NCBI GenBank assembly: GCA_016124795.1
Contig: WGNB01000035.1
Coordinates: 1-64,000, forward strand
DNA: 64,000 nt
Origin: Rhodopseudomonas sp.
GTDB lineage: Bacteria; Pseudomonadota; Alphaproteobacteria; Rhizobiales; Xanthobacteraceae
Reading direction: 5' to 3'
The translations under genes were made by a program, and so were the position numbers. The notes beneath the pieces are model-generated. The model made no database searches. It had not been told where the DNA came from and worked only from the letters and a program-made list of their open reading frames with translations. Every line of letters begins with the position of its first letter. The first letter of the stretch is position 1. Positions 1,001 through 34,224 of this stretch are shown piece after piece.

Positions 1001-4000
1001 CGTAACGGTTGCCGGCAGGGACATCGCCATATGGCAGGCCATCCGAGGCAAAGTTGAATATGGCGTGATTGCCGCTGTCGAGATTGCCGAAAACATCACC
1101 GCCGACCGCCGCCGAATAGACGATCCAGCGCCCGCCCGGCGTGGAAATCGCGCTCGAACCGGAATTGTTGATAAAGTTGCTGGCGGCATCGAGCACGACC
1201 GCATTGCCGGAGGCGGACGATGCGATCTGAGCGCCGCTATTGAGCGTCAACGAACCGGCGGTTCGGATCAACACACCGCCATTGGCCGTGACCGACCCCG
1301 AGGCCAAGCTGACGCTGTCGTAAAGGTTGAGGCTGCCGGAACCGAGGTTCGCGAAGCCGAGACTTGCAAACTGGTTGTTGGTATCGGCGAGCGTGGCGAC
1401 CGGCGCGCCATTACCGACGACTTGAAGCTGAAGGACGTTGACGTTGAGCGCCGCGCCGGCGGATTGCGAAATATTGCCGCCCAAGGTCGAAATTCGCAAA
1501 ATGCCGGACTGAGTGATCGCCTCGTCAATGGTGAAGTTTGCGGCACTGGTGATGATGGAGCGGTTAGCATAGCTCGTCGACACGCCGTTCGAGCCGATCG
1601 CCGTCAGCAGGCCGCTGGAAATCCCCGATAGCGCCGAAGCCGCGCTTGTTTCGGTTAGATAGGTGCCATTGATGTTGAACGCGGTCTGCGAACCGGCCGC
1701 AACATCCTGCCGGTAGGACAATCCGCCTGTCGTACCGGTCGTATAGACCGCGAGCTGGCTGTTGGCCGCGATGGTGCCCGGCGCGACCAGCAGTTCGTAG
1801 TAGCCGTTGGCGCCGGCCAAAACGTTGCCGACGTTCGTGCCGTTGACCAGCGCGTTGACCGCTACTCCGGACGCGGCCGTCGTTCCGAAATTGCTATAGG
1901 CCTTGCCGGAGACGACCTGCGGCGTGCCGCCGGAAGCGGGATACTGCCAGAGGAAATAAGGATGGCTCTGGCCCTCGACGATGCCCCAAATATTGGTGAA
2001 ATCCCAGCCGCCGGCGCCGCCACAGCCCGTGCCGGTGTAGCAAGCCTGCGTGGTCGCCAGCGCGGTCGCCAGGCCGGCGATATTGCCCGACTGAGACGTC
2101 GCATTTTGATCGAGGCCAATTGCCACGCCAACGCCAGTGGTGCCCGTATCCCAATAGCTGGCCGCAATTATCCCCGAGGAACCGTTCCACCCGATCAGCC
2201 CGCCGATGGAGTCCCTGCCGGTGACGGCGCCACTGGCGTAACTGCGCTGCACACTCCCAAGGTTTTCACCGACCAAACCACCGGCAACGTCAGTGTCGGC
2301 AGTTACCGTCGCGGCCGCGTAGCTATCCTTAATTTTAGGCAATACGCCCAGAAAAGCTTGACCGACACCTCCGACGAGACCGCCAACTTTGGTGTAGCCG
2401 TGGACAGACCCTGCGGCATAGCTCGCATTAATGGTGCCGTGGGTGAGCGTGCCAACGAGCCCGCCGACATAACTGTTTCCGTCGACGCTGCTGTTCGAAT
2501 AAGAACTACCGACAGTCGCGGCGTCACTAGATCCGATGAGGCCACCGACGCTATCGTTTCCACTGACTGAGCCCGAGACGTAAGCATTTGTAACCGACGC
2601 CAGTCCCTCCAATAGCCCAACGAGCCCACCGACATTATCGCCGCCGGTCACTGCAACGCTGGACAATCCAACACTGGTTATCGATCCGGTTGCGGTTGCG
2701 TAGCCAAACAACCCGACATTGTCGGCCGAGGGTCGGTTGATCGTCAGCCCGCTGATCGTGTAATTGCGGCCATCAAAGCTTCCGTAGAAGCCATTGGTTA
2801 AATTCCCGATCGGCACGAATCCGGCGCCGCCGTTCCAGTTAGCCGTGCCGCTGGCGTCGATGTCATTAGCGAGCTGCCAATCGGCAGCAAGGAAGGCCGT
2901 CGATGAGCCGATGCCTTGCAGGCCATAGACATCCGCAACCTGATACGGCGCAGCGCTCGACCCATCTCCGCCGGCCACGCGCAGGAACGAACCGCCGCTA
3001 ATGGTGAAGCTGGTCGCAGCGAAGCCCGGCAGCGCACCGGTTTGCACCCAGTTGCCGCCTTGCAGATTGAACGAGCCGACGTTGATCGCGGCGGTCGCGC
3101 CGAGCTGCGTGGTGCTGGTGCCGTTCAAATACAGATTGGTCGACAGGCTATTCAACGCCTGGTCAATCATAAAGCTCGACCCGGTCGCGTTAACGAACAG
3201 GTTCGCGTAGGAGGACGGCACGCCGGACACACCGCCGATCGCCGTCGCCAGATTCGCGTTAACCGTCGACAGGTTCGACGACGCGGTGGCTGTCGTCAGC
3301 GCGTTGCCATAGATGTTCAGATTGGAGATCACACCCGACGCATTCTCGGCGAGCGCCACACCACCGGTCGCACCGGTGGTGTAGGTGATCAGCATCTTGC
3401 TGCCGTCGAGCAGGCTGGAAGCGACCGAGAACTGGTATTCGCCGCCGCTGCCAGTGGTCGTGGCGCCAACGCTCACGCCGTTGATCAGCGCGTTGACCGT
3501 CACCCCACTGCCGACCAGCGTCGCGCCGAGGTCGCTATAGACATAGCCGGAAATTAGCAGCGTCGACGGACCCGATGCATAGACAAACTGGTTGCCGCTG
3601 GCGCTGATCGAACTCGGTGGGTTGGCCGCGTAGGTCGAACTGTAGATCGTGCCACCGGTCAGCCCGCCAACATTATCGCTGGCCTCAGCCTGGCTGTAGA
3701 TGAGCCAGCGGCCGCTGGCAGCCGACAGCGCCGAGGCGCCGACACTATTAGTGAAGGTGGTGCCATCGACGAGCACAATGGCGTTACCGGTCGCAGAACT
3801 CTTCAGCGTGCCGGACGCGAGCGTGAGGCTGCCATTGGCGACATTGACAAGCAGGGTGCCGACGGCGGTGATCGAGCGATCTACGGTAAACGCGCTACCG
3901 GTCGCATCGATTTCAACATTGCCCGCTGTGGTCGTCAACGCGCCGCCCGTCACCGAATAAGGCAACGCGCTCAAGGACAAGCTGCCCTTGGCGGTGGCGA

Positions 4001-27394: not shown

Positions 27395-28426
<1,032 letters not shown>

Positions 28427-28790: not shown

Positions 28791-29390
28791 TTAAGACGCG
28801 CGCACCATTGGCACGATGCTGGCGACCAGCAGCAGCGCCATGGCGATGTTGAAAATCCGCGCATGCGACGGGTCTTTCAAAAGACCGCGCAAGGCCACGC
28901 CGAAAGCCGACCAGGTCAAAACCGAGCCGGCGGTCGCGATGGTGAAGGCCAGCAGCATCAGCGGAATATCGAAGCTCTGATGATCCGGCCGGACGAAAAT
29001 GGCGATGGCGCTGACCGCGGCCAGTACCGCCTTCGGGTTGACCCACTGAAATGCCGCCGCCTGGAGAAAGGTAATCGGGCGCGCTGGCGCCTGACCTTCG
29101 TTAGCCAGATGCGCAGTCGATACCTTATAAGCGAGATACAGCATATAGACCGCGCCGGCGACCTTGAGCGCGACGTGCAAGGCCGGCACCGCCGCAAACA
29201 CCAGGCCCAGCCCGGCGGCGCAGGACGCCAGAAGCACGAAGAACCCCAGCGTCACGCCCATCATATGCGGGATCGTCCGCGTGAAGCCGAAATTCACGCC
29301 GGACGCCGCCAACAATATGTTGTTCGGCCCCGGCGTGAACGACATCGCACAGGCAAAAACCAGCAGCGCCAGAAAAATATCGACCGGCAT
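28791..29390 (-). CDS. LysE/RhtB-family amino acid exporter
   Basis: 199 residues, six hydrophobic segments, with the family opening MPVDIFLALLVFACAMSFTPGPNN and a GVNFGFTRTIPHMMGV turn. Members export amino acids such as threonine, homoserine or lysine. The ATG at 29390 overlaps the ilvN stop, so it is translated with the branched-chain genes. Export of excess branched-chain amino acid is a reasonable guess, not shown by the sequence. Confidence 0.9.
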   Translation of the reverse strand: MPVDIFLALLVFACAMSFTPGPNNILLAASGVNFGFTRTIPHMMGVTLGFFVLLASCAAGLGLVFAAVPALHVALKVAGAVYMLYLAYKVSTAHLANEGQAPARPITFLQAAAFQWVNPKAVLAAVSAIAIFVRPDHQSFDIPLMLLAFTIATAGSVLTWSAFGVALRGLLKDPSHARIFNIAMALLLVASIVPMVRAS

Positions 29391-29950
29391 TACATCCCGT
29401 CCGGACCGCGCCCGATCGCCGCGATGCCGGTACGCGACACCTCGATCAGCCCCAGCGGCAGCATCAGAGCGACGAATTGCTCGATCTTGTCGCTCTTGCC
29501 GGTGATTTCGAACACGAAGCTTTCGGTCGTGGCGTCAATCACGCGGGCACGGAAAGCATCGGCGAGGCGCAGCGCCTCGACCCGATTCTCGCCCTTGCCC
29601 GCCACCTTGACCATCGCCAGTTCGCGCTCGATCGAATTGCCGGCGAGCGTCATATCGACGACGCGATGAACCGGCACGAGGCGGTCGAGCTGATTCTTGA
29701 TCTGCTCGATCACCATCGGCTTGCCCGTCGTCACGATGGTAATAAGCGACAAGTGCCTGGCGTGCTGGGTCTCGGACACCGTCAGCGACTCGATATTGTA
29801 GCCGCGACCGGAAAACAGACCGATCACCCGGGCGAGAACGCCGGGCTCGTTATCGACCAGCACCGACAAGGTGTGCGTCACGTCGCGCTCCGCCATCGGC
29901 GCGCTCGGATAATGCGAAGTGCTCGAGGGTATATTTGCGTTTGCGTTCAC
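29390..29950 (-). CDS. ilvN: Acetolactate synthase small (regulatory) subunit
   Basis: 186 residues. Two ACT-type regions: the first holds VDNEPGVLARVIGLFSGRGYNIESLTV (about 31-57), where valine binds in homologues. The C-terminal ALS_ss_C part contains AFRARVIDATTESFVFEITG. The start is GTG 29950 with AAGGATTAGGA upstream; an ATG at 29896 would drop 18 disordered residues. Partner of ilvB, 104 bp upstream. Confidence 0.95.
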   Translation of the reverse strand: MNANANIPSSTSHYPSAPMAERDVTHTLSVLVDNEPGVLARVIGLFSGRGYNIESLTVSETQHARHLSLITIVTTGKPMVIEQIKNQLDRLVPVHRVVDMTLAGNSIERELAMVKVAGKGENRVEALRLADAFRARVIDATTESFVFEITGKSDKIEQFVALMLPLGLIEVSRTGIAAIGRGPDGM

Positions 29951-30054: not shown

Positions 30055-31815
30055 CTAAACCAGCATCCTGCCTTCCTCGCTGATCGCGTCGTCGAGGCTC
30101 TCGCCGCTGTCGCCGAGGATCATTTCGTTATGGGCGCGGCCCGATGGAATCATCGGGAAGCAGTTCTCCGCCGGATCGACCACGCAGTCGAACAGCACCG
30201 GCCGGTCGACATCGATCATTTCCTTGATCGCGTGATCGAGATCGCCCGGCTTTTCGCAGCGAATACCGACCGCGTGCATGGCCTCGGCGAGCTTGACGAA
30301 ATCCGGCAAGGCTTCGGAATAGCTCTCCGAATAACGGCTGCCGTGAAGCAATTCCTGCCACTGGCGGACCATGCCCATATAGCCGTTGTTCAGGATGAAC
30401 ACCTTGATCGGCAGCCGATACTGCACCGCCGTCGACAATTCCTGCATCGTCATCTGAACGCTGGCTTCGCCGGCGATGTCGATAACCAACGCATCGGGGT
30501 GCGCCAATTGCACGCCGACCGACGCCGGCAGGCCGTAGCCCATGGTGCCGAGACCGCCGGATGTCATCCACCGGTTCGGTTCCTGGAAGCCGTAGAACTG
30601 CGCCGCCCACATCTGATGCTGACCGACTTCGGTGGTGATGTAGGTATTCTTGTCCTTGGTCTGTTCGAACAACCGCTGGATCGCGTATTGCGGCTTGATG
30701 ACCTCGTTCGACTGCCGGTAAGCCAGCGACTTGCGGCCGCGCCACTTGTCGATCTGTTTCCACCAGTCGGCCAAGGCCTTCTTGTCGACCTGCTTGGCCT
30801 CGGTCCGCCACAGCCGCACCATGTCTTCCAGCACATGGGCGCAATCGCCGACGATCGGAATATCAACGCGGATATTCTTGTTGATCGACGAAGCGTCGAT
30901 ATCGACGTGGATTTTCTTCGAGCCCGGCGAAAAGGCATCGACCCGCCCGGTGATGCGGTCGTCGAAGCGCGCGCCGATGCAGATCATGACATCGCAATCG
31001 TGCATCGCCATGTTGGCCTCGAGCGTGCCGTGCATGCCGAGCATGCCCATCCACTGCGGATCGGCGGCTGGATAGGCGCCGAGCCCCATCAGTGTCGAGG
31101 TAATCGGGAAGCCGGTGAGCTTGACCAGTTCACGCAGCAATTGACTGGCATGATTGCCGGAATTGATCACGCCGCCGCCGGTGTAGAACATCGGCCGCTT
31201 CGCCTGCGCCATCAGATCGATCGCCGCCTTGATCTGCGCCATATCACCCTTGAGCTTGGGCTTGTAGCCGATATGCGGGAAATCCTTCGGCTTTGAATAG
31301 ACACCCTTGGCGAACTGGACGTCCTTCGGAATGTCGATCACGACCGGCCCCGGCCGTCCGGTCGAGGCAATATGGAAAGCCTCGTGCAGGATGCGCGGCA
31401 GGTCCTCGATGCGCTTGACCAGATAATTGTGCTTGGTGCACGGCCGGGTGATGCCGACCGTGTCGGCTTCCTGGAAGGCGTCGTTGCCGATCAGATGCGT
31501 CGGCACCTGGCCGGTGATGCAGACCAGCGGGATCGAGTCCATCAAGGCGTCGGTCAGGCCCGTCACCGCATTGGTGGCGCCGGGACCCGATGTGACCAGC
31601 AGGCAGCCGACCTTGCCGGTCGAACGCGCATAGCCTTCCGCGGCGTGCGCGGCGCCCTGCTCGTGCCGGACGAGAACGTGCTTCACATCCTTCTGGGCAA
31701 ACAGTGCGTCGTAGATCGGCAGCACCGCGCCGCCCGGATAACCGAACAGATGCTTCACGCCCTGGTCGGCGAGCGCCTGGATCACCATTTCGGCGCCGGT
31801 CATTTCCCGTGTCAT
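30055..31815 (-). CDS. ilvB: Acetolactate synthase large (catalytic) subunit
   Basis: 586 residues, thiamine diphosphate enzyme condensing pyruvate with pyruvate or 2-oxobutyrate. N-terminal PYR domain with the YPGGAVLPIYDAL region and the catalytic Glu in VRHEQGAAHAAEGYAR, FAD-associated middle domain, and C-terminal PP domain ending in ILNNGYMGMVRQWQ. The ThDP motif reads GEA where most family members have GD(G/A), a conservative Asp-to-Glu change at the metal ligand. Upstream are a leader peptide and an attenuator terminator. Confidence 0.96.
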   Translation of the reverse strand: MTREMTGAEMVIQALADQGVKHLFGYPGGAVLPIYDALFAQKDVKHVLVRHEQGAAHAAEGYARSTGKVGCLLVTSGPGATNAVTGLTDALMDSIPLVCITGQVPTHLIGNDAFQEADTVGITRPCTKHNYLVKRIEDLPRILHEAFHIASTGRPGPVVIDIPKDVQFAKGVYSKPKDFPHIGYKPKLKGDMAQIKAAIDLMAQAKRPMFYTGGGVINSGNHASQLLRELVKLTGFPITSTLMGLGAYPAADPQWMGMLGMHGTLEANMAMHDCDVMICIGARFDDRITGRVDAFSPGSKKIHVDIDASSINKNIRVDIPIVGDCAHVLEDMVRLWRTEAKQVDKKALADWWKQIDKWRGRKSLAYRQSNEVIKPQYAIQRLFEQTKDKNTYITTEVGQHQMWAAQFYGFQEPNRWMTSGGLGTMGYGLPASVGVQLAHPDALVIDIAGEASVQMTMQELSTAVQYRLPIKVFILNNGYMGMVRQWQELLHGSRYSESYSEALPDFVKLAEAMHAVGIRCEKPGDLDHAIKEMIDVDRPVLFDCVVDPAENCFPMIPSGRAHNEMILGDSGESLDDAISEEGRMLV

Positions 31816-31880
31816 GGTCGTCGTCCTTGTCCGTCGTGCTCTATGCGTCTTGCTGATCGTTCAGTGCGGTTATCCGCAAT

Positions 31881-31901
31881 AAAAAAGGCCCGCGAAGGGC
31901 C
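31881..31901 (-). terminator. ilvB attenuator terminator
   Basis: The minus strand reads GGCCC-TTCGC-GGGCC followed by TTTTTT, 66 nt before the ilvB ATG and 34 nt after the leader stop. The upstream segment GCGGGCC (31928-31922) can take the same GGCCC partner and act as antiterminator. The leader-end segment CGAACACT (31952-31945) pairs perfectly with AGTGTTCG (31914-31907) to sequester it. This is the classical three-stem attenuator layout. Confidence 0.85.
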
Positions 31902-31934
31902 ATGTCCGAACACTCACCTGGGGCCCGCGCGGGG

Positions 31935-31988
31935 CTACCTGGCCAGTGTTCGAACCGCTACTACGAGGGTAATATTCTTGCGCGACAT
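31935..31988 (-). CDS. Ile/Leu/Val-rich leader peptide of ilvB (ilvL-like)
   Basis: A 17-residue ORF, MSRKNITLVVAVRTLAR, contains Ile, two Leu and three Val codons, with I-T-L-V-V-A-V as a control block. It begins about 22 nt after the predicted transcription start and ends just before the alternative stems and the U-tract terminator. Stalling at the control block when charged Ile/Val/Leu tRNA is scarce would keep the first stem open and allow read-through into ilvB. Too short for usual gene callers. Confidence 0.8.
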   Translation of the reverse strand: MSRKNITLVVAVRTLAR

Positions 31989-32016
31989 CGTGTTCACCCG
32001 AACTTTCGTTGCGCGT

Positions 32017-32045
32017 TATATACGGGCGGTCCACCGCCCGGTCAA
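32017..32045 (-). promoter_or_regulatory. ilvB operon promoter with a dyad in its spacer
   Basis: Minus strand: TTGACC (32045-32040), 17-bp spacer, TATATA (32022-32017): a strong sigma-70 promoter with optimal spacing. The spacer is almost wholly an 8-bp inverted repeat, CGGGCGGT-GG-ACCGCCCG (32040-32023), which could be an operator or promote DNA distortion. Transcription would begin near 32010. Confidence 0.7.
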
Positions 32046-32073
32046 GCGCCTTTTCTGACGGTAAACCCATGCA

Positions 32074-32105
32074 AAAGGCCCCGCAAGCGCGCCTGCGGGG
32101 CCTTT
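32074..32105. terminator. Bidirectional intrinsic terminator
   Basis: AAAGGCCCCGCA / TGCGGGGCCTTT is a perfect 12-bp stem with an 8-nt loop and A/T tracts on both sides. It lies 56 bp beyond the stop of the last chemoreceptor gene (minus strand) and 29 bp upstream of the ilvB -35, insulating the amino acid operon from chemoreceptor transcription. Confidence 0.85.
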
Positions 32106-32160
32106 AAATGTCGTGCCGGGCCACGAGGGCCTCAGCTCAGCGGAAGACCGGCCTGTCGGA

Positions 32161-34224
32161 TCAGGCGGCGGCGCGTCGCCGCCGCGCCGGCCCAGCGGCC
32201 GGCTGACCGGAAGCGGTCGCGGTGCGCGGAGCCGCCGGCATCACCGGACGACCTTGCCCACCATCGGCATTCTCGCCTTCCACCTGGAAGAAGGCCACCT
32301 GCTCGTCCATCGCCCGCGCCTGCTGCTCCAGAATCTGCGAAGTCGCGGCGTTTTCCTCGACCAGCGCCGAATTCTGCTGGGTCGCTTCGTCCATCTGGGT
32401 CAGGGCCCGCTTGATCTCGTCAAGGCCGGTGGCCTGCTCGGCGCTGGCGGTTGCAATATCCGCCACCACCGACGCGACGGTGCGGATCGACTCGACGATC
32501 TCATTGAGCGCTTCACCGGCCTGATTGACCAGCCCGACGCCTTCCTGGACCTGACTGCCGCTGGTGGTGATGAGCTGGGCAATGTCCTTGGCCGCCTGCG
32601 ACGACCGCTGCGCCAGGCTGCGCACTTCCGACGCCACGACCGCGAAGCCACGGCCGGCCTCGCCGGCGCGCGCCGCTTCAACCGCCGCGTTGAGCGCCAG
32701 CAAGTTGGTCTGGCGCGCGATCTCGTCAATCACGCTAATGATGTCGGAGATCTTGCGCGACGATTCCTCGATCTGCGCCATCGCCTTGACCGCCCGCGCG
32801 GCCACCTCGCCGCCCCGATCGGCGACCTCACGGGTCGCCATGGCCGATTGGGTCGCAGCCTGGGCATTTTCGGCATTGCGGCGCACCGTCGTCGAAATCT
32901 CCTCCATCGACGCCGAGGTCTCTTCGAGGCTTGCAGCCTGTTCCTCGGTACGTTGCGACAGATCGGTGGTGCTGCTGGCAATCTCGGCGGAGGCGTGTGT
33001 CACCTCGCGCGACGAAGATTTGATTTCGGCGATCGCCGTCCGTACCTGTTCGACCATGCGGCCGACGGCATTGACGATCAGGCCGACTTCATCGCTGCGC
33101 TCGATCCGCGGCAAAGTGACGTTGAAGTTGCCACCGGCGATCTTCAACATGCCGTCCTGGACCTGACGCAATGGCATGGTGACCCGGCTAGAAATCAGCA
33201 GCAGAACCGAGCCGGTCAAACCGCCGGCAAGCACCAACAGTATCAGCTCGACCGCGAGGCTCCATTCCGCACTGGAACGCCGTTCGGCGGCGTGGTCGCG
33301 GACCACCTGCAAGGCGACCTCAGCGACGCGCAGAAGCGAGGCTAGTTTCGCCACCGCGACCTTCGACCATTCCGCCGACGACAGATTGGACTTCTGGCCG
33401 GCCAGAATGCCCTTCAATGTGTCCATCCGCAGCTTGACGTAATCGGGCCCGAAGAACTCCTGATCGGCATTGCGGACGGCCGCGGCAAATTGCGCCGGCA
33501 GCGTGAGGCCAGCGGCGACTTCATTGAGCGCATTCCACGCCGTCGCCGTGCGGCTTTCGCTGGTGGCGTATTTGACCAAGGCATCCGGCGGCGGCGCGAT
33601 GCCACCGATACCGTTGGTGATCATGACCGAGGAGTCGCCGGCGCCGTTGCGCGCGGTCCAAGCCAGTTGCTTGATCAGCATCAGCTGATCGACATAGGCG
33701 TCCTCAAGCTTGACCGAATTGGCAAGCTCGGTCGAAATCCGGTCGAGCAAATCCATCGTCGACGAAATATGGTCGAACAGGTCCTTCGCGAGATTGGGCG
33801 GACGCGAGGCCTTGGGCAGCGAGAAGGCCGGCACGGATTCGGCATGCAGCGCCTCGAGCCTGTCGATCGCCTGCTTCAGCGCCGCCTCGACCGCCGCCCC
33901 ATCGGGGAGCTTTGCTTCATGCAGCGCGATCAGGCCGGCCCTGAGAGCCGGCATTTCGGCGCCGCGCGTTTCGGCCAATGAAGAACTCAGACCGTTGCTT
34001 TTGTCCGAACGAAGGTCGCGGTTGGAAGCCGCCCGATCGACCCGCAGATTGTGCAGGCCGGTGAATAATTGGGTCGAAGCCTCGGCAACATAAGCGAGGT
34101 GGTTCGCGTTGCTCAATCGGGTCCAGGACCCCCACGCGCCGGCAATCAATACGGCGATGACCGCTACCGACAGCGATCCAATGGTGGCCTTCAGTAATAC
34201 GTTGATCGAAAGGCGGCTCAACAT
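32161..34224 (-). CDS. Methyl-accepting chemotaxis protein (MCP-1)
   Basis: 687 residues. A transmembrane helix near 10-30, a roughly 290-residue periplasmic helical sensor region of no family I can name, and a second helix near 325-345. A HAMP domain ([17 protein letters not shown]...) and the cytoplasmic signalling hairpin follow, with the conserved tip [22 protein letters not shown]. No CheR-tethering pentapeptide is visible; the tail is Pro/Ala/Arg-rich and ends RRRAAA. Same length and architecture as MCP-3 (36175), so they are paralogues. Ligand unknown. Confidence 0.95.

Follow-up and report, generated by a model that had tools for sequence, protein, structure and literature searches.

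A branched-chain leader peptide before ilvBN of Rhodopseudomonas sp. that very probably serves a ribosome-mediated transcription attenuator

Does the DNA just 5' of ilvB in Rhodopseudomonas sp. carry a ribosome-mediated transcription attenuator, and which of its parts are kept by its relatives? We analysed a stretch of 64,000 nucleotides (contig WGNB01000035.1, positions 1 to 64,000), here called the window, to which all coordinates refer unless a locus is named. A first-pass annotation of the letters alone had described a complete ilvB attenuator; its letters and coordinates were all in place, on the minus strand (Table 1). In our judgement the element is very probably a ribosome-mediated transcription attenuator of ilvBN, which would sense the charging of branched-chain tRNAs, probably that of valine most directly. 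The identity of the gene, the conservation of leader and terminator, and a covarying stem (the protector) that joins the end of the leader to the base of the terminator all support the attenuator with a branched-chain leader claimed by that annotation.

Table 1. Features of the ilvBN locus in the window and of the related locus L240
Feature	Position	Strand	Remarks
Methyl-accepting chemotaxis gene	32161-34224		
-35 element TTGACC	32040..32045	(-)	read from sequence
-10 element TATATA	32017..32022	(-)	17 nt from -35
ilvB attenuator element	31988-31881	(-)	65 nt 5' of ilvB start
Leader ORF, MSRKNITLVVAVRTLAR	31935..31988	(-)	17 codons + TAG; 6 Ile/Leu/Val; start ATG at 31988-31986, stop TAG at 31937-31935
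Protector stem 5' arm, GTTCGAACACT	31945..31955	(-)	leader codons Val12 to Leu15
Candidate antiterminator 5' arm, CCCGCGCGGGCC	31922..31933	(-)	contains GCGGGCC
Protector stem 3' arm, AGTGTTCGGAC	31904..31914	(-)	
Terminator hairpin GGCCC-TTCGC-GGGCC	31887..31901	(-)	
T tract TTTTTT	31881..31886	(-)	
ilvB/ilvI, acetolactate synthase large subunit	30055..31815	(-)	586 aa; NCBIfam NF006581 and TIGR00118 over cut-off
ilvN/ilvH, acetolactate synthase small subunit	29390..29950	(-)	NCBIfam NF008864 and TIGR00119 over cut-off
ORF between ilvN and ilvC	28791-29390		below-cut-off matches to amino-acid efflux (LysE/RhtB-type) families
ilvC, ketol-acid reductoisomerase	27395..28414	(-)	further downstream of ilvN; NCBIfam NF004017 over cut-off
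L240, RF02502 element	1501-1621		
L240, MFS gene	1651-2844		

The element sits on the minus strand between the chemotaxis gene and ilvB, and the branched-chain biosynthesis genes ilvB, ilvN and, further down, ilvC lie 3' of it. Transcription of the leader would start from the putative promoter elements: TTGAC was found 5' of the leader in 19 of the 19 upstream sequences compared, and, once the Rhizobiaceae L078 and L073 are set aside, 14 of the remaining 17 have GCGCAA after the -10 region. A consensus promoter scan, whose rule demands T at the last -10 position, reported none at this site. An inverted repeat in the promoter spacer (GGGCGGT-GG-ACCGCCC, 32039-32024) was considered as an operator and rejected, as it is absent in the four congeners (L003-L006). 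A strong hairpin 3' of the chemotaxis gene (AAAGGCCCCGCAGGCGCGCTTGCGGGGCCTTTT, at about 32106-32071) is probably the terminator of that gene, separating the ilv promoter from it.

The 17-residue Ile/Leu/Val leader is present, and its run of branched-chain residues beats shuffled sequence: out of 1000 dinucleotide-shuffled versions of the upstream DNA of the window, 6 gave an ORF before the terminator with at least five Ile, Leu or Val within seven residues. To place the leader among its relatives, we compared the upstream regions of ilvB at the loci L002-L191, of which 182 out of 190 were usable (L032, L071, L074, L155, L156, L166, L168 and L176 were left out; the window is L002 and counts among the 182). 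A branched-chain leader followed by a terminator precedes ilvB in 147 of these regions, the window included; the counts are not independent, as L033/L113, L034/L119, L036/L139, L037/L138, L041/L143 and L045/L151 are apparently the same organism twice, and the 147 contain three doubtful leaders (L016, L043 and L104). L041 is Azorhizobium doebereinerae and L045 Ancylobacter aquaticus; the window's own family is taken as Xanthobacteraceae. By our own pattern 148 of the 182 regions have a terminator, one of them lacking the ORF, and 34 have none. Runs of at least five in seven residues occur in 101 of the 147 leaders, which had themselves been selected on a run of at least three, where shuffles predict 3.4 such leaders and the antisense side yields 1. 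In the 147 leaders Ile/Leu/Val codons are densest between 13 and 9 codons ahead of the stop, immediately 5' of the protector arm. The earlier annotation had proposed to look for disruption of the leader ORF in close relatives; it is intact in the four congeners examined, which keep leader, stem and terminator alike.

The hairpin GGCCC-TTCGC-GGGCC and the tract TTTTTT were found as described. As a pattern the terminator is not significant by itself (1 found, where shuffles of the 601-base region average 0.6), and it is position and conservation that carry the call of a predicted terminator. When complete leaders were folded without any mask, terminator probability exceeded 0.9 in 124 of 147 and fell below 0.5 in 7.

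The pairing between the end of the leader and the stretch before the terminator, also claimed by the first-pass annotation, is supported by folding and by covariation. In the free fold, GTTCGAACACT and AGTGTTCGGAC form an 11-bp stem adjoining the terminator (z-score -2.68, with 2 of 200 shuffles as good). Between the window and its congeners one pair of this stem has changed from A-U to G-C on both sides, the change on the leader side being synonymous (Arg CGA to CGG), and another has changed from U-G to U-A in three of the four. An alignment was made of 45 sequences out of the 84 non-identical leaders of the family. The protector was paired in 92.8% of its cells, against at most 55.1% for slid control versions, and 7 of its 10 pairs had changed on both sides, a result that 0 of 500 shuffles matched; the stem had been picked from well-paired columns, written by hand and counted on that same alignment, so that structure and test share their data. 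In the five sequences from the genus of the window the protector is two columns out of register; they appear unpaired at several columns in this count and were read separately. RNAalifold on the 45-sequence MAFFT alignment returned no pairs. Pairing of a leader end with its own pre-terminator stretch beat pairing with foreign ones in 125 of 133 leaders; the equivalent score for the terminator (133 of 133) follows by construction from a pattern that demands paired arms, which does not apply to the protector score. A stem on the 3' codons of the leader, which a stalled ribosome would open, is present and covaries.

These parts suggest the following mechanism. With isoleucine, leucine and valine plentiful, the ribosome would finish the leader and depart, and the 3' end of the leader would then pair just before the terminator and tie up the linker; with the protector formed, the terminator would form and transcription would stop near 31881. 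When charged tRNA is scarce, the ribosome would stall at the Leu/Val codons and cover the 5' arm of the protector, and the freed linker could pair with the terminator arms, so that RNA polymerase would continue into ilvB. In the trp-type attenuator of E. coli, the position of the ribosome on regulatory codons picks between the terminator and an alternative fold, and the window would share this choice. Unlike the trp type, the protector here joins the 3' end of the leader to the base beside the terminator, and no separate antiterminator stands out in the relatives.

The last step, antiterminating pairing, was examined by masked folding. The first-pass annotation had proposed three mutually exclusive stems; protector and terminator turned out to form together, and it is the antiterminator that excludes both. 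With the first 43-54 nt of the leader masked, the linker of the window pairs with both terminator arms (CCCGCG and GGGCC with CGCGGG and GGCCC), and the probability of the terminator drops from 0.998 unmasked to 0.05 at 43 nt and about 0 at 48-54 nt. Masks of up to 40 nt left it at 0.997 or above, the switch needing 42-43 masked nt. A standard ribosome footprint covers about 40 nt with Val9 or Val10 (31964-31959) in the A site. Unless ribosomes cover a longer stretch than this, Val12 would in this model suit the window better as the stalling site than would Val9 or Val10. With the ribosome placed on the stop codon, two masks gave opposite outcomes: the terminator stood at 0.005 for 63 nt masked and at 0.979 for 66 nt. 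Against foreign linkers the pairing of the window's linker with its terminator stood out (-23.2 kcal/mol, where foreign linkers average -15.8 and none of 40 is as good), and against the 5' arm of the terminator alone 5% of 40 foreign linkers were as good. Shuffled linkers did as well in 31 of 200 (arm) and 94 of 200 (terminator) cases with the mask ending 9 nt before the stop, and in 16 of 200 for each with the mask at the stop.

The claimed antiterminator GCGGGCC is plausible in the window; in the relatives its counterpart pairs no better than chance, and support for antiterminating pairing comes from the window only, with none across the relatives. Own linkers did not pair better with their own terminators than foreign linkers did (53 of 133 leaders, p 0.18), and when offered the whole hairpin they were worse on average (better in 44 of 133, p 0.003). 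Across the 147 leaders the terminator stood at 0.90 against 0.80 with shuffled linkers, and sequestration of the arm at 0.54 against 0.58; in only 33 was there some ribosome mask that pushed the terminator below 0.5. Among the congeners, L004-L006 kept it at 0.996 with the mask ending 9 nt before the stop.

These results lend some weight to a different account of the readthrough step, in which only protector and terminator are under selection, there is no dedicated antiterminator, and generic GC-rich pairings of the linker, or kinetics, delay the terminator. We regard it as a serious possibility, if the less likely one. The protector covaries and the linker-terminator pairing does not, and consensus folds of the stalled state retain the terminator in three sets: the five congeners, 24 named Rhizobiaceae-type loci, and the own-family loci L154-L190. 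In cut transcripts (the 147 leaders ended before the 3' arm of the terminator), sequestration of the 5' arm rose from a mean probability of 0.10-0.16 with the mask ending 21-18 nt before the stop to 0.54 with it ending 9 nt before; wholly unmasked cut transcripts, however, are already at 0.45, so this contrast depends on the mask. The account also has to accommodate the advantage of the window's own linker over foreign ones, and the comparison of own with foreign sequences cannot score pairings that are near-invariant.

A second alternative concerns the transcript as a whole, which might come from a stand-alone gene for a trans-acting sRNA that merely happens to lie before ilvB. Rfam types the family RF02502 (Atu_C8) as 'Gene; sRNA', not as a leader, and the model matches the window region from end to end, at 21.8 bits and E 0.063, below the gathering score of 50. 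A genome-wide scan at E 0.001 gave no match in the window's own genome or in 14 control genomes, among them Caulobacter vibrioides. Judged by sequence, the relatives bridge the gap between the window and RF02502: out of 19 loci, 17 of them with names, 11 score above gathering; of 20 chosen own-family loci 17 match at E up to 1, three of them above gathering; and at E 0.001 the model finds 76 of the 150 genomes from the order, 22 of these above gathering. Like the window element, RF02502 spans leader codons, protector stem, a stop-codon hairpin and terminator in the same place before ilvB; the window differs from it in a protector register shifted against most of the family and in a short terminator stem.

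The position of these matches argues against the stand-alone gene. Of the 30 loci with the best scores that were fetched, 29 have ilvB about 35-160 nt 3' of RF02502 on the same strand. The RF02502 matches considered here are those in L078, L073, L236-L239 and L241-L265. Among the named loci that we compared (e.g. L078, L073 and L066), the match shares sequence with a leader ORF rich in Ile, Leu and Val, and the Agrobacterium copy overlaps the leader MKNLNVLIVVGRRMGRMV. A cis leader accounts for both position and peptide, and we consider the stand-alone sRNA quite unlikely. Since RF02502 stands just before ilvB in nearly all of the best-scoring loci, Atu_C8 looks like, and from its sequence context most likely is, the terminated product of the ilv attenuator, with an additional role in trans possible; retyping of the family in Rfam as a cis leader is probably due. 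The source of Atu_C8 is presumably Wilms 2012. Three sRNAs of Wilms et al. from Agrobacterium are probably 5' UTR leaders according to PMC3738593, so the point that Atu_C8 is such a leader may already be in print. A literature search, within the parts of papers that it covered, found none linking Atu_C8 to an ilv attenuator. For a trans role there is the analogy of the trp attenuator RNA of Sinorhizobium, which acts in trans according to PMC7143759.

No Rfam family, riboswitch and T-box included, matched at gathering in 31700-32150, and within the window only a tRNA elsewhere reaches that level. That a GC-rich hairpin, its T run and a small ORF came together here by chance is extremely improbable. 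The frequency of the terminator pattern in shuffles is the one argument for it; against it stand the compensatory changes in the protector, the four congeners, which retain leader, stem and terminator alike, and the 147 of 182 upstream regions that have both leader and terminator.

The choice of codons in the leaders is unusual and speaks for the attenuator. GTA makes up 48% of the 368 Val codons in the 147 leaders and 1% of the 1846 in 42 ilvB genes (0 of 43 in the window's own ilvB), and at least one GTA occurs in 132 of the leaders. ATT stands at 52% in leaders against 11% in ilvB genes, and CTT at 42% against 6%. This preference (GTA for Val, CTT/CTC for Leu and ATT for Ile) is strong and testable, and the ilvB genes are without it. 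In E. coli a leader codon bias is known and is explained by selective charging of isoacceptors, according to PMC1183508. With the final seven codons of each of the 147 leaders set aside, 461 of 769 Ile/Leu/Val codons and 347 of 774 others end in A or T. Part of the bias is therefore general AT richness of the leader, and the isoacceptor explanation is not proven. Among the 44 tRNAs found in the window's own genome, the Val anticodons are UAC and GAC only and the Leu anticodons CAA, UAG, CAG and GAG; none is labelled Ile, perhaps through an assembly gap. Separately, many leaders begin with Met-Arg-Asn (MRNK, MRNF, MRNI and MRNN together in 53 of 147, e.g. L026, L030 and L175), often written ATGCGCAAT, although this start lies outside the stem and the regulatory codons.

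An attenuator of this kind is already known in alphaproteobacteria, and the window locus is a new example. Vitreschak et al. reportedly predicted ilvIH attenuators in alphaproteobacteria in 2004. As the papers that cite that work describe it, its ilvB/ilvIH attenuator shares gene, bacterial class and leader peptide with the window: an alphaproteobacterial ilvB leader peptide is named as previously described in PMC1273637, and an 'ilvIH cis regulatory' entry for Sinorhizobium meliloti appears in PMC2573895, both crediting Vitreschak 2004. In Caulobacter crescentus, as in the window, a leader, there with tandem Ile and Val codons, and a terminator precede ilvBN. For that operon PMC4117421, citing Tarleton 1994, gives a leader CDS and transcription attenuation. 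For the window itself the gain is mainly a settled annotation, with ilvBN of the group under branched-chain leader control. The attenuator is ordinary in kind, and the by-products of the comparison, RF02502 and a copy of the element before a transporter, are more interesting.

This copy came to light at L240, the thirtieth of the best-scoring RF02502 loci, where an element with the leader MMIAIDMVVVGRRMGTAA precedes not ilvB but an MFS transporter gene (TIGR00710 Bcr/CflA over cut-off). In the family of L240, RF02502 was found in 121 of 136 genomes, twice in 20 of them. The family is taken to be Devosiaceae, as the match in one of its genomes agrees in coordinates and score with that of Devosia sp. 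YR412. Twenty further regions were fetched, 18 from two-match genomes and two from single-match genomes with high scores; 19 run into an MFS gene and one into ilvB. In all, a valine-rich copy stands before a Bcr/CflA-type MFS transporter in 20 genomes, G242 included (MFS-copy loci L240, L267, L269-L276 and L278-L288). With the start set at the ATG that gives the longest frame of up to 20 codons, the 20 MFS leaders hold 60 Val, 20 Ile and 6 Leu codons, with GTA in 39 of the 60, and mostly carry Val-Val-Val. A literature search, judged by titles and abstracts, found no paper on such a leader before an MFS transporter.

We lean towards the view that the ilv attenuator is a portable cassette, with RF02502 its terminated product, and that the duplicate in Devosiaceae, tuned to valine, would switch on the Bcr/CflA-family MFS transporter upon shortage of valyl-tRNA or stalled translation. 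If so, sensing of amino-acid starvation would be tied to the export or import of some substrate by a transporter of a drug-efflux family. The prediction that this transporter is induced by valine starvation or stalled translation is a concrete functional lead. A different duplication is seen at L268 (G141:C1049), which has two RF02502 copies; MVLAVVIGRMGRMV is the leader as read at the second copy, which stands before another ilvB-like gene, 61% identical to the ilvB of the window.

A further variant concerns the terminator. Of 15 compared leaders without the standard terminator, 13 retain both a leader, for example MRKIVTILVRRSATGGAA, and a strong hairpin, GGGGCC-TTCG-GGCCCC (L135, L137-L139, L141-L143, L145, L146, L148, L150, L152 and L036, of which L036 and L139 appear to be one organism; the hairpin is varied in L150). 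Another mode may replace intrinsic termination in these leaders, where the T tract gives way to the tail TTCGTCGTTTC, or TTCGTTGTTTC in L141.
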